This document shows, piece by piece, positions 13,867 through 40,384 of a stretch of 64,000 nucleotides of DNA. A program made the translations under genes and the position numbers. The notes beneath the pieces are model-generated. The model made no database searches, was not told the origin of the DNA, and saw nothing but the letters and a program-made list of their open reading frames with translations. Within the stretch, counting starts at the first letter, position 1. The number at the start of each line of letters is the position of its first letter. Origin of the DNA: Cycloclasticus sp. symbiont of Poecilosclerida sp. M (GTDB lineage: Bacteria; Pseudomonadota; Gammaproteobacteria; Methylococcales; Cycloclasticaceae); NCBI GenBank assembly GCA_002101225.1, contig LWTN01000243.1, positions 1 through 64,000 of the forward strand. Direction: 5' to 3'.

Positions 13867-14076
13867 TTAAAAAACCGCACTAAAACGGGTAAACTGAGAC
13901 CCACCTTTAGTTGCAACTAAAGGCTTTATGTTACAGCTCGATGGAGTGATGGCTTTTTTCTTAATTAAGAAAACAAAACCGATAACAAGTGAGAGCGTAA
14001 CATAACTCATTAAAGTAATAACTCGAACAGTCATCAGGGACTCGCAGCCCGTATAGCAAGTAGGAGTAATACTACC
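13862..14076 (+). ncRNA. Candidate bridge/seek RNA region of the IS110-type element
   Basis: This non-coding left end holds a 20-bp perfect palindrome (CCTTTAGTTGCAACTAAAGG, 13904-13923), a second AT-rich inverted repeat around TTCTTAATTAAGAA, and TAACAAGTGA at 13983-13992, the exact reverse complement of the ten bases spanning the right-end/target junction (15041-15050). IS110-family elements encode a structured guide RNA in such a region. The assignment is inference from position and this match; no fold was computed. Confidence 0.4.
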
Positions 14077-15019
<943 letters not shown>

Positions 15020-15070: not shown

Positions 15071-15572
15071 ATGAACACTGTTTTACAGCCTGTAAAAATT
15101 GGATTGGCGCTTGTGTTAGTTGGCCTGCTCTTTGGCCTTATGCTCGGTATGGGTTTTGGTATTAATGAAGATTTTTTTAAAGATTATGTAGCGCAAGGAA
15201 TCGCTGCTAATCCAGATGTTCACGACGATAAAAGCCAAGGTAAAATTTGGCGCTATGCGCAACGCGCCCATTTCCATGCCATGGGTATTGCAGCCTTCTC
15301 ATTAGGGTTATTGTTATTAGCGACCTTTTCTTCACTTAAAACAGGCTTCAAAAAGACCGTATCGGTACTTATTGGCTTAGGTGGTTTGTATCCACTTGGC
15401 GTGGTTATCCATGTTCTATTTTGCACCCTCCATGGGTAGAGGCGCGGCTCATTCGCATATCATTACTGAGCTGTTAACCTATGTTGGCGTTGGCGCATTG
15501 ATTGCCGGCTTGCTTATGTTGATTTTGAATTTATTTGCGAACGTATTCGGTGAAGCCGAAACATCAAATTAA
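15071..15572 (+). pseudogene. Conserved four-helix membrane protein split by a one-base frameshift
   Basis: The first frame (15071-15439) encodes a membrane protein with helices near GLALVLVGLLFGLMLGMGFG, AAFSLGLLLLATFSS and VSVLIGLGGLYPLG, then loses register. The second frame continues as WLSMFYFAPSMGRGAAHSHIITELLTYVG with a last helix, ending at 15572. Dropping G15401 rejoins LYPLG to WLSMFYFAP and gives one protein of about 166 aa. The HDDKSQGKIWRYAQRAHFHAMG segment holds several histidines. I recognise it only as a conserved bacterial membrane protein of unknown role. It could be intact with a sequencing error. Confidence 0.65.
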
Positions 15573-16009: not shown

Positions 16010-16552
16010 TTAACGAACACCAAGGATCCGATAACGCCCACGAGTTGTTAAGGTAACGCTTATGGGTTTTGCGGTGTCATTTTTCCAATACCAACCGTGA
16101 TTCCCATCGAAGGGTATAGTTTGTATTCCTTTGGTTTGATTAAGAGTGTTTTCTTCGTAACTTTTAAAGTAGCCAGTCGTATCACCTTTAGGTTCACCGT
16201 GGAAGTCAAAGTAGAGTTTGCCGCCGTCGGTTTTCCACGTATAGCGAAGCGCAGCGCCTTTCTCTAAAATAAATTTATATTCCAATCCACTGAGCGGGGG
16301 GATGATAACCGTAACAGTGTCGTTTCTTTGCATAAGTGTTTCGCCGCAGGATGCAGAGTTAGATTGATCTTCAGCTTCCTCGGCAGGAGCTAAAGCGAGT
16401 AATCCCATCTTCTTCCCTAAACCGGTTGGGTCAATGCCGAACTCGGCGGGTAAAATAGCGATGACAAGTAGCAAACCTGCTAAAGCAAGTGATACAGCGG
16501 TTGCTTTCAAGAGGTACTTTACAGATTGAATGGGGTGGTCTAAATCATTCAT
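16010..16552 (-). CDS. Membrane-anchored periplasmic protein of unknown function
   Basis: The 180-aa protein has one N-terminal membrane helix (residues 15-35, ATAVSLALAGLLLVIAILP) that should anchor a periplasmic domain. That domain contains IIPPLSGLEYKFILEKGAALRYTWKTDGG and DGNHGWYWKND, a pattern I associate with uncharacterised transmembrane anchor proteins next to HupE-like genes. It begins 4 nt after the HupE-like gene, so the two form an operon behind ettA. No catalytic motif is evident. Confidence 0.75.
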   Translation of the reverse strand: MNDLDHPIQSVKYLLKATAVSLALAGLLLVIAILPAEFGIDPTGLGKKMGLLALAPAEEAEDQSNSASCGETLMQRNDTVTVIIPPLSGLEYKFILEKGAALRYTWKTDGGKLYFDFHGEPKGDTTGYFKSYEENTLNQTKGIQTIPFDGNHGWYWKNDTAKPISVTLTTRGRYRILGVR

Positions 16553-16556
16553 AGTG

Positions 16557-17252
16557 TTAGCCTGCGATGAAATAAGAAGTCATTTGAAAGCCGAATAGCG
16601 TAAAGCCACCGGTCATAAGGAGTGTGTTGGTTGCAGAGGTAAAATGGTCATAACTTTTATAGCGCCGCCAAAAACTCAAAGTGATGAGTATGAATACAAG
16701 GGCAAGAAATTGTCCGAACTCTACACCAATATTAAACGCGAGTAGGTTCTTCCATAAATCAACCTGGGGCAGGTTGAATTCTTGCAACTTTGTAGCAAGG
16801 CCTAAACCGTGGAATAATCCAAAAATTAATACAGCAGCTTTGGTGTTGGGTTCAAAACCCATCAGTCGTTTAAAGCCCCCTAAATTATCAAAACCTTTAT
16901 AGACGATAGAAAGCCCAATAATGGCATCGATAATATAAGCATTAACTGCCACGTTGGTGAGCACGCCCAGTAATAAGGTAATGCTATGCCCGAGGGTGAA
17001 AAGACTAACGTACAGCAAAACATCGCGTTTGCGGTAAAGGAAAAATATCACGCCGATCAGGAATAACAAGTGGTCGTAGCCCGTCACCATATGCTTCGCG
17101 CCGATATATAGAAAAGGCCCAACGGCAACGCCTTGATTTGCAAGCAAGAAGCGCTGAGTGTTTTTATCTACTCCGTGGGCAAGTACGTCTACACTCGTAA
17201 TGCAAAATAGTACGAGGGCAAGTAATAAAAAAAAGCTTGAGCGAGTGCTAAT
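16557..17252 (-). CDS. HupE/UreJ-family membrane protein with probable ATT start
   Basis: HupE/UreJ proteins are small membrane permeases or metal-related proteins near hydrogenase, urease and other loci. The family motif GAKHMVTGYDHLLFLIGV is present, followed by five to six helices. The track begins at TTG 17147, but the open frame continues upstream through a perfect signal peptide (SSFFLLLALVLFCITSVDVLAHG), which would leave His as the first mature residue. No ATG, GTG or TTG begins this stretch. ATT at 17252 is preceded by AAAGGA at 8 nt and lies 20 nt after the ettA stop. I therefore take ATT as start, giving 231 aa; a base error in an ATG is the alternative. Confidence 0.8.
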   Translation of the reverse strand: MSTRSSFFLLLALVLFCITSVDVLAHGVDKNTQRFLLANQGVAVGPFLYIGAKHMVTGYDHLLFLIGVIFFLYRKRDVLLYVSLFTLGHSITLLLGVLTNVAVNAYIIDAIIGLSIVYKGFDNLGGFKRLMGFEPNTKAAVLIFGLFHGLGLATKLQEFNLPQVDLWKNLLAFNIGVEFGQFLALVFILITLSFWRRYKSYDHFTSATNTLLMTGGFTLFGFQMTSYFIAG

Positions 17253-17272
17253 AAGTTGAATCCTTTATAGCG

Positions 17273-18940
17273 TTAACCCGCGAGCTTTTTATATTTAAGT
17301 CGCCTTGGCCGGTCAGCTTCAGCACCCAGTCGCCGTTTCAAATCGACTTCATAATCTTCATAGTTACCTTCAAACCAAACCACTTTACTGCCGCCCTCAA
17401 ACGCGAGCATATGGGTGGCAATTCGATCTAAGAACCAGCGATCATGCGAGATAACGACCACACAACCGGGAAAGCTAAGTAGGGCTTCTTCTAACGCACG
17501 CAGTGTTTCAATGTCCAAGTCATTCGTTGGTTCATCAAGCAACAAAACGTTACCGCCTTCTTTTAATACTTTGGCGAGGTGCACACGGTTGCGTTCGCCA
17601 CCTGATAGGTCGCCCATTTTCTTTTGTTGCTCAGACCCTTTGAAGTTAAAACGGCCAACGTAGGCGCGAGAAGGCGTTTCGTAGGTGCCAACAGTTATTA
17701 CATCGCTGCCTTGAGAAATTTCTTCAAAAACGGTTTTATTGTCATCTAAACTGTCGCGTGATTGGTCCACATAGGCGAGCCTAACCGTCTCACCTATTTT
17801 TATTTCGCCAGCACTAGCTTCTTCCATGCTACCCATCATTTTGAATAGGGTGGATTTACCCGCGCCGTTTGCGCCGATAATGCCGACGATACCGCCTTGA
17901 GGAAGGTTGAAATTAATATCGTCAAACAACACACGATCGCCAAAGGCTTTACTGGCGTTAACGGCTTCGATAACCGAATCGCCTAGACGTGGCCCGGGGG
18001 GGATGTAAATCTCTTGGGTTTCACTGCGTTTTTGGAAGTCTTTAGATTGAAGCTCATCAAACTGCGCCATTCGCGCTTTGCTTTTGGCATGACGACCTTT
18101 TGGGTTTGAACGCACCCATTCTAATTCTTTTTTGATTGAACGCTTGTGTGAGGCTTCAGCTTTCTGTTCTTGTTCGAGTCGAGCGTCTTTTTGTTCCAGC
18201 CACGATGAGTAGTTGCCTTCCCAAGGAATGCCACGTCCTCGGTCGAGTTCTAAAATCCAGCCAGCTACGTTATCTAAGAAATAACGGTCATGCGTAACAG
18301 CGACAACAGTGCCGGTAAAGTCGTGTAAAAAGCGCTCTAACCAAGCGACAGATTCGGCATCCAAATGGTTAGTTGGTTCATCCAAAAGTAACATGTCGGG
18401 TTTTGAAAGTAATAACTTACACAAAGCGATACGGCGTTTTTCACCGCCAGATAGTTTGCTTACATCGGCATCCCAAGGCGGTAAGCGCAAAGCGTCAGCG
18501 GCTATTTCCATGGTGCGATCAGTGTCGTGCCCATCGCCGGCTTGTAGGATGTTTTCTAACTCGGCTTGTTTTTTGGCTAAGGCATCAAAGTCAGCATCAG
18601 GTTCAGCGTAGGCTGCGTAAACGGCGTCTAATTCGGCTTGAGCGGATGTAATATCTCCTAAGGCATCTTCTATATTTCCGCGCACGTCTTTGCTCTCATC
18701 TAACTGAGGTTCTTGTGATAGATAACCAATTTTTATACCTGCTTGTGGGCGCGCTTCACCTTCGATTTCGGTGTCTAAGCCGGCCATAATTTTAAGCAAA
18801 GTAGATTTACCCGAGCCATTCAAACCCAATACGCCGATTTTCGCGCCGGGGAAAAAGGACAATGAAATATCGGTAAGGATTTGGCGTTTAGGTGGTACAA
18901 CCTTGCTAACGCGGTTCATGGTGTAAATGTATTGAGCCAT
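17273..18940 (-). CDS. ettA: Energy-dependent translational throttle protein (ABC-F ATPase)
   Basis: EttA binds the ribosomal E site and gates the first elongation step according to ATP/ADP ratio. Two ABC domains are visible: Walker [10 protein letters not shown] and GANGAGKST, signatures LSGGEKRR and LSGGERNR, Walker [12 protein letters not shown] and [11 protein letters not shown]. The arm and linker region [19 protein letters not shown] sits between them. No membrane segment is present, as expected for ABC-F. The 555-aa length is exact for EttA. It is the first gene of a minus-strand group with the HupE-like gene. Confidence 0.97.
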
Positions 18941-38546: not shown

Positions 38547-39302
38547 ATGCCATTAACAGATATAAAAACCAAGAGCCTAAAAGGTGGCGTAAAGCCTAAT
38601 GGAGATAAAACCAAAAAGCCTTATCGTGTAACAGATGAAAAGGGGCTGTATATTGAAGTCCCGCTAAAAGGTAGAAAGCGTTGGCGGTTTAAGTTTCGTA
38701 TTGGTGGAAAAGAAAAAAGGTTGTCACTTGGTGTTTACCCAGAAGTGACGCTGAAGTCAGCCAGAAAAAAGCGTGATGAATATAGGGCGTTAGTTGCGGA
38801 TGGTGTAGACCCGTCCATCATGCGAAAAGTAAAAAAACTAACGGTAGCAGGTGAAGGTAGTTTTGAATCCATAGCGCGTGAGTGGCACGGCAAATTTGGT
38901 AAAAACTGGAGCGATTCCCATACGGCAAGAACAATCAAACACCTTGAAAATAATATATTCCCTTGGTTGGGGGCAATGCCAATTAACGATATTAAGCCTG
39001 TTGAATTATTGGCCACATTAAAACGAATTGAAAGTAGGGGTGCGCTTGATACGGTTCATAGGGTGCGGGGTATCTGTTCATCTGTTTTTAAGTACGCAGT
39101 TACAACAGGGCAAGGTGAAAGAAACCAAGCCGCCGATTTAATAGGGGCTATTCCACGCACCGAAACAAAGCATCATGCGGCTATCACCGACCCAGTGGGT
39201 GAGCAAACTATACAAGCCATTGAGGCTGGCAATATCATCCGTGTGCTAATACAAGGCGGCGGCAGATTTAATAGACAAAGCCAGCATCACGTTAGGGGTT
39301 AA
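38547..39302 (+). pseudogene. P4-type tyrosine integrase, truncated (catalytic domain lost)
   Basis: The first ~215 residues are a normal P4-like integrase: the N-terminal DUF4102 arm-binding domain (YRVTDEKGLYIEVPLKGRK; RLSLGVYPEVTLKSARKKR) and the SAM-like core-binding domain (SFESIAREWHGKFGKNWSDSH). Homology ends at KHHAAITDP, exactly where the catalytic domain should begin; the remaining ~35 residues are unrelated. The Arg/His/Tyr recombinase residues are missing, so it cannot recombine. It sits behind tRNA-Cys, the usual location of such islands. Confidence 0.88.
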
Positions 39303-39429
39303 CCAACGCTTTGCCAGTGCCACGGTAATCAATAATGAATATTCATCGCCTAAGGATGTTGTGCTATCAGGTAAAGAACTAGAGGATGAACTTAAGAGGC
39401 GTGACTTACCTATGTTGGACTTGGATTAG
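39253..39429 (+). pseudogene. C-terminal scrap of a phage-like protein
   Basis: In the frame one step from the integrase tail an open stretch reads AAADLIDKASITLGVNQRF then ATVINNEYSSPKDVVLSGKELEDELKRRDLPM before a stop at 39429. The regular amphipathic composition suggests a genuine protein end, possibly a small phage DNA-binding or terminase-like protein. It has no start codon and is fused to the integrase remnant by deletion. Identity is uncertain. Confidence 0.4.
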
Positions 39430-39542
39430 CAAGCAAGGCAACTATTGACGGTGTTCGATATGGAATCGAAGGCTTATCGGCCGATACCTGTAAAGCCGAC
39501 TGCGGTTTGTGGGTGACACAGTAGCCTTTTAGCTACTTATGT

Positions 39543-39554
39543 TATACTTGTATA
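39543..39554. promoter_or_regulatory. Candidate operator/-10 region of the toxin-antitoxin pair
   Basis: TATAC-TT-GTATA is an inverted repeat with 5-bp arms that also contains a -10-like TATACT, 27 nt before the antitoxin ATG. RHH antitoxins commonly repress their own operon by binding such palindromes over the promoter. Confidence 0.4.
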
Positions 39555-39580
39555 CCCATTCCATTAACGAGGCTATTCCC

Positions 39581-39808
39581 ATGAGTAGACAAGCAGCGAT
39601 TAGGTTAGCAGATAAAACATACGACAGGTTACAAGAGCTTGCTGAAAAAACAGGACGTACAGCTACGTTTTATATGCGTGAAGCCATTGAGACGCACTTA
39701 GAAGACCTTGAAGACGTTTACCTAGCAGAACAAACGCTTGAGCAAGTCAAGCGTGGAAAACAGCGCACCTTCTCACTAAGCGAGGTTGAGCGTGAGTTGG
39801 AAAATTGA
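39581..39808 (+). CDS. RHH-type antitoxin of a RelBE/ParDE-like pair
   Basis: The 75-aa product starts MSRQAAIRLADKTYDRLQELAEKTGRTATFYMREAIE, a typical ribbon-helix-helix (CopG/RelB-like) DNA-binding domain, followed by an acidic helix (HLEDLEDVYLAEQTLEQVKRG) that should wrap the toxin. ATG at 39581 has GAGG upstream and is preferred to the track start at 39539. The gene overlaps the toxin gene by 17 nt, the usual TA arrangement. It probably represses its own promoter. Confidence 0.88.
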   Translation: MSRQAAIRLADKTYDRLQELAEKTGRTATFYMREAIETHLEDLEDVYLAEQTLEQVKRGKQRTFSLSEVERELEN

Positions 39809-40061
39809 GCTAACAGACCAAGCATTAAAGCAACTTAAAAAAATGGGGCAAGGTGAAGCGAGGCGCATCACTCACTATCTAAGAAAACGAATTGAACCGT
39901 TGGATAATCCACGTCAGCTAGGCAAAAACCTAAAAGGTGGCTTGTCAGAACTTTGGCGTTATCGCGTGGGTGACTATCGCTTGATATGCGAGATTAGAGA
40001 AAATGAATTAATCGTTCTAGTGGTACGCATAGGACACCGTAAAGGCGTTTACCAGAAATAA
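39792..40061 (+). CDS. RelE/ParE-superfamily toxin
   Basis: The ~89-aa basic protein has the family pattern: WKIELTDQALKQLKKMGQGEARRI at the N-terminus, LKGGLSELWRYRVGDYRLICEI in the middle and VLVVRIGHRKGVYQK at the end. The conserved RYRVGDYR and the C-terminal basic residues suggest RelE-like mRNA cleavage, though ParE-like gyrase inhibition cannot be excluded. GTG at 39792 with GAGG six bases upstream is preferred over TTG at 39786. It overlaps the antitoxin gene. The pair probably stabilised the island. Confidence 0.88.
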   Translation: MSWKIELTDQALKQLKKMGQGEARRITHYLRKRIEPLDNPRQLGKNLKGGLSELWRYRVGDYRLICEIRENELIVLVVRIGHRKGVYQK

Positions 40062-40384
40062 CGTACGCTACGTCCCACTCATCACCAACGACGCGCATTA
40101 GGTCAAGTCAGCAATATAACGGGTTAAAAAAGAAGTTAAGAAAAAATATTTGGGGGTAACTATTAACTTTCAAATCTCTAAATCCTTTTGTACCAATGGC
40201 TGTGGGGTTTAATTAGGCTGTGCTCTCACCACATGTTCTCTTAAGTTTAACTATCTTTTTGATTTAAAAACACACCTTCAAATAAAGAAACTAACACTGT
40301 TATATCGTATACTTACGACACATATAATTGCGCTATTGCGAGTGCATTAATTCGTATTAATTTAAAGATCAATTTGGAGATAAA
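40062..40384. other. Non-coding interval between TA pair and icd
   Basis: No gene is seen. It includes the right-hand copy of TTTGGGGGTAACT (40149-40161), which may mark the island's end, and the icd promoter region with TATAAT at 40323-40328. The rest is AT-rich without clear structure. Confidence 0.5.
40300..40328 (+). promoter_or_regulatory. Candidate promoter of icd
   Basis: A perfect TATAAT (40323-40328) lies 57 nt before the icd ATG; the hexamer 17 nt upstream, TTATAT, is a poor -35. The ribosome site GGAGAT precedes the start codon at 40385. Confidence 0.45.

Follow-up and report, generated by a model that had tools for sequence, protein, structure and literature searches.

A hupE gene directly behind ettA that may be translated from an AUU codon

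In the 64,000-nucleotide stretch of DNA analysed here (the window; contig 243, bases 1-64000, from a 2.32-Mb draft assembly comprising 244 contigs), a gene of the HupE/UreJ_2 family (hupE) lies on the minus strand just downstream of ettA and lacks a canonical start codon where one would be expected. We favour, on balance, the reading that its translation starts weakly at an AUU codon at positions 17250-17252. Here, the gene and its partner lie directly behind ettA, an order seen in no relative examined, and the usual hupE start is missing; an AUU in the 3' region of ettA would now take over as the start site, with initiation directed by an AAAGGA motif located 8 nucleotides upstream. Weak initiation at this codon would account for an intact open reading frame (ORF), a protein under selection, a Shine-Dalgarno (SD)-like motif, and an in-frame signal-peptide n-region. 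Counting against it are a codon that is not conserved, a terminator-like hairpin with a T8 tract over the start, and frameshifted genes nearby. An AUU start had been proposed in the initial annotation of this locus; it is still the best reading, as a prediction made from the DNA, and loss of the start or an error in the sequence is likelier than was assumed there.

Read from the ATT, hupE (16557-17252, minus strand; stop codon at 16559-16557 by direct reading) encodes 231 amino acids. Its product matches the PF13795 profile (7e-55) with 185.4 bits against a curated cut-off of 24.5, and the domain begins at residue 51 of the 235-residue frame between stops; the cut-off of PF04955 (HupE_UreJ) was missed, with 21 bits against 23. 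Members of the HupE/UreJ_2 family are annotated as nickel/cobalt permeases, and by that annotation the product is probably a metal permease of the Ni/Co type. Its predicted signal peptide, (I/M)STRSSFFLLLALVLFCITSVDVLA, is encoded by 25 codons (17178-17252, minus strand), carries an in-frame Arg in its n-region, and ends in a VLA-HG cleavage motif. From this motif we infer cleavage between Ala25 and His26, so that the mature protein would begin with HGVDKNTQRF. The range 17147-17252, to which the feature had originally been assigned, falls within the gene and covers only its 5' part, as the ORF ends at 16557. A search of the whole assembly found no second hupE copy, and a search by sequence found no solved structure for the product.

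The upstream gene, ettA (energy-dependent translational throttle protein; 17273-18940, minus strand; NF008775, 985 bits), ends with a TAA at 17275-17273. On the minus strand, the SD-like motif AAAGGA, with an AAGGA core, occupies 17261-17266, and direct reading of the sequence places an in-frame TAA at 17267-17265 that bounds the hupE frame on its upstream side. This TAA lies downstream of the ettA stop, and a frameshift fusion with ettA is thereby excluded. Between 17264 and 17147 on the minus strand, direct reading finds no in-frame ATG, GTG, TTG, or CTG. The ATT is the sole one-base neighbour of ATG located 5-11 nucleotides past the SD, while CTT at 17255 and AGC at 17249 differ from ATG by more than one base. 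The original observation that ATT 17252, 20 nucleotides past ettA, is the only start-like codon rightly spaced from AAAGGA is thus borne out. Across the window, 2.1% of ATT triplets have a 5-nucleotide SD match placed 5-10 nucleotides upstream. Shuffles of the 44-nucleotide start region produced an ATT in frame and preceded by such a match in 0.26% of cases; with ATC and ATA also allowed, the figure is 0.73%. Of the 52 long ORFs in the window, a 5-nucleotide SD precedes the first start codon in only 6; when the best of the first four start codons is taken, the number is 13. AAGGA is therefore a strong SD for this genome.

Evidence for a start upstream of the TTG comes from the relatives. In an alignment of 15 orthologues, including that of the window, the sequences are 64-82% identical to the window protein over its full length, and H26, G27, D29, T32, and F35 are invariant in all 15. 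All of these residues precede the TTG, which is codon 36, and the 35 codons before it encode them together with the signal peptide. Translation might instead begin at CUU 17255, or at the internal TTG (17145-17147, minus strand), the latter giving a protein without a signal peptide. The TTG is indeed the first canonical start codon, although no more than that can be read into its earlier description as "annotated", and it opens an ORF of 196 amino acids with an intact PF13795 domain. However, it has no SD, and its use would drop the invariant residues and a signal peptide that every relative carries, while the CUU is two base changes away from AUG; use of either codon is highly improbable. Comparison of the orthologues' starts placed none at the internal TTG, the position that the initial annotation had singled out as telling against an AUU start, and its claim of a signal peptide upstream of the TTG holds.

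A wider set of 91 N-termini, parsed from two collections and including that of the window, gives the same picture. A mature N-terminal His is present in 91 of 91, and the residue before it is Ala (82 members), Gly (7), Ser, or Pro, a signal-peptidase-type pattern. The starts include 80 ATG, 7 GTG, and 2 TTG codons; the 80 ATG starts give signal peptides of 17-40 residues, and in L046 an ATG lies just outside this range. The window gene is the only one of the 91 with no canonical codon anywhere in its open frame upstream of the His. The 25-residue signal peptide counted from its ATT falls inside the range of the relatives. AUU starts had been described as usually regulatory, for which no support emerged here: the orthologues start with ATG, GTG, or TTG, so that the AUU is not kept among them as a regulatory feature. 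Of 11 congeneric hupE genes, at least 4 (L003, L004, L008, and L010) lack an ATG at the signal peptide and depend on GTG or TTG; weak starts are thus common for hupE in the genus.

The genomic context of the window gene is peculiar to it. Among the genomes examined, the ettA-hupE junction was found only in this one, and the sequence downstream of ettA differs in 13 congeners. The closest hupE orthologue comes from the same genus, and similarity to the hupE locus of the sister species becomes recognisable just after the T8 tract; upstream of it, homology in the start region is not significant, since 255 of 500 shuffles scored as well. These observations, together with the terminator-like hairpin and the frameshifted neighbouring genes, fit a different history, in which hupE was broken within its signal-peptide region and placed by a rearrangement behind the 3' end of ettA and its terminator. 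The original start would then be gone, the ATT incidental, and the gene silent or nearly so, an incipient pseudogene. We consider this somewhat unlikely. The 231-codon ORF and the partner gene are intact and show no relaxation, a spaced SD with an in-frame AUN would be a coincidence of 0.3-0.7%, and the n-region retains an in-frame Arg. Moreover, the missing similarity in the n-region is weak evidence for start loss, because the n-regions of signal peptides are poorly conserved anyway. In the sister species (L031; 3564-4001 and 3992-4669), the start of hupE, an ATG, has a 10-nucleotide overlap with the end of a different gene upstream, and the upstream neighbours of hupE vary from genome to genome.

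Two other genes near hupE appear to be broken. At 0.4 kb past the partner gene, a membrane-protein gene (15071-15572, plus strand) has a frame break near 15400 that divides it between two frames, while its orthologue in a congener (L178) is in a single frame. An IS110 transposase gene (about 14056-15019, plus strand) is apparently split as well, into an N-terminal piece at 14056-14238, recognised by eye where Pfam made no call, and the rest at 14201-15016. Such frameshifted neighbours fit either local decay or a local sequence error. If the error lay in hupE itself, the true codon would be ATG, or the junction would be mis-assembled. The assembly is a draft, a one-base change from ATG to ATT would suffice, two apparent frame breaks fall within about 3 kb, and the parsed relatives other than the window all start at a canonical codon. 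Nonetheless, a homopolymer indel masking a canonical start is ruled out, as the interval from the ettA stop to the T8 tract contains no ATG, GTG, or TTG in any forward frame. Most of the other long ORFs around it are intact, and the junction matches one place only in the assembly; the viral contigs yielded no second copy of it. We regard an error as distinctly unlikely. Both start loss and sequence error stay live, however, because of the hairpin over the start, the unique junction, and the frameshifted neighbours. Elsewhere in the window, a stretch of 1.06 kb (39300-40360) has no ORF of 100 codons.

The hairpin bears on how an AUU start would work. It spans 17230-17290 on the minus strand (-19.2 kcal/mol) and resembles a terminator for ettA; its 5' arm consists of the last ettA codons and its 3' arm of the first hupE codons past the ATT, while the ettA TAA, the SD, and the ATT lie in its interior. 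The T8 tract that ends it (17227-17234, minus strand) falls inside the signal-peptide codons of hupE. A 90-nucleotide stretch that includes the hairpin has a z-score of -3.0, a stability reached by 1 shuffle in 200. Of the hairpins preceding the 35 runs of seven or more T in the window, this one is the strongest. Since the pairing of the outer arms alone is matched by about 4% of shuffles or genomic segments, the structure is probable and still uncertain. Its stem is long and interrupted, and it was absent from the output of a simple terminator scan.

In translational coupling, a hairpin that spans an upstream stop codon and a downstream SD and start is opened by the ribosome translating the upstream gene. 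The predicted ettA-hupE hairpin resembles this arrangement, in that it spans the upstream stop as well as the SD and start, with upstream coding sequence as its 5' arm; unlike a coupling hairpin, it is followed by T8 and may act as a terminator. If AUU 17252 is the start, hupE would share an mRNA with ettA, and a ribosome completing ettA would open the hairpin that holds the SD, the AUU, and the ettA stop. With these three elements in a hairpin whose 5' arm is made of ettA codons, hupE would probably be translated at a low level and in dependence on ettA translation. Reinitiation across about 20 nucleotides was weak, and almost lost, in the E. coli and Haloferax pairs tested (PMC10666635); it is unlikely to suffice for hupE, and de novo, SD-driven initiation would therefore be needed. 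A bolder version holds that the relocated hupE took its SD, its AUU, and the n-region of its signal peptide from the 3' end of ettA and the terminator hairpin. The permease would then be produced only as ribosomes complete ettA, and a new start would have evolved inside a terminator; this is speculative and, as a whole, unlikely.

In E. coli, infC and pcnB are initiated from AUU, and infC has an AUN start in other bacteria as well. In this genome and in seven congeners with readable starts, infC begins with ATC after GGAG (L116, on contig 204 of G000 around position 16060; L114, L115, L117, L120-L122, and L126), which indicates that AUN starts are in use in the genus. The pcnB gene appears to start at TTG in the genus and hence provides no AUU control. 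The cvfC1 gene of S. aureus has an AUU start with an SD, and non-canonical starts gave roughly 10% of the AUG level (PMC13009471); in Salmonella, one AUU start of a proteoform has been documented (PMC11005335). As in E. coli infC and pcnB and S. aureus cvfC1, the hupE AUU follows an SD motif, and low initiation would be expected. The starts of those genes have been tested, however, and that of cvfC1 is conserved, whereas the hupE AUU is a predicted start, is unique to one genome, and belongs to a predicted metal-permease gene.

HupE/UreJ_2 (PF13795) orthologues share with the window protein the same domain, the conserved His and Asp, and a signal peptide followed by His; the window gene differs only in its start codon and gene context. 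In the anglerases Ang-1 and Ang-2 fused to HupE/UreJ_2, His is residue 1 of the mature protein and has been described as metal-binding, and an extra extracytoplasmic domain binds Cu or Ni (PMC12537917). Like these fusions, the window protein has a His directly past its predicted cleavage site; unlike them, it has no Ang domain: roughly 20 residues separate His26 from the HupE/UreJ_2 domain, and ahead of this membrane domain there is only the conserved stretch HGVD..T..F. That the mature His could be a metal ligand, as first suggested in the initial annotation, is plausible from its conservation and fits the anglerase work, although the domain studied there is absent here. The hairpin, the genome-specific junction, and the frameshifted neighbours had all been missed at that stage.

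Gene finders limited to ATG, GTG, and TTG would shorten the hupE product and lose its signal peptide and conserved N-terminal His. If the AUU is used, it would be a lineage-specific and apparently non-regulatory addition to the very few known AUU starts, and an example of a gene surviving the loss of its start codon after a rearrangement. The novelty is modest, as AUU starts and HupE proteins with an N-terminal His have both been published.

Until recently, hupE was under selection, because its protein retains all 102 columns that are invariant in the other 14 sequences (0 deviations) and pN is low relative to pS in the mature part (0.069 and 0.818 against the sister species; both values are given in place of a dN/dS ratio, which was dropped because dS is saturated). 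The partner gene (16010-16552, minus strand; no Pfam hit) begins 4 nucleotides after hupE and is intact. Its distribution follows that of hupE (12 of 18 genomes, the same ones), and the two are adjacent wherever the contigs allow. The pair as a whole has thus been under selection until recently, though numbers of this kind would miss a very recent loss of expression. In G011 (contig 23, about 73683-74723; L158 is the first part), a single open frame of 388 amino acids has matches to HupE (39%) as well as to the partner protein (50%), and this apparent fusion supports a functional link between the two genes.
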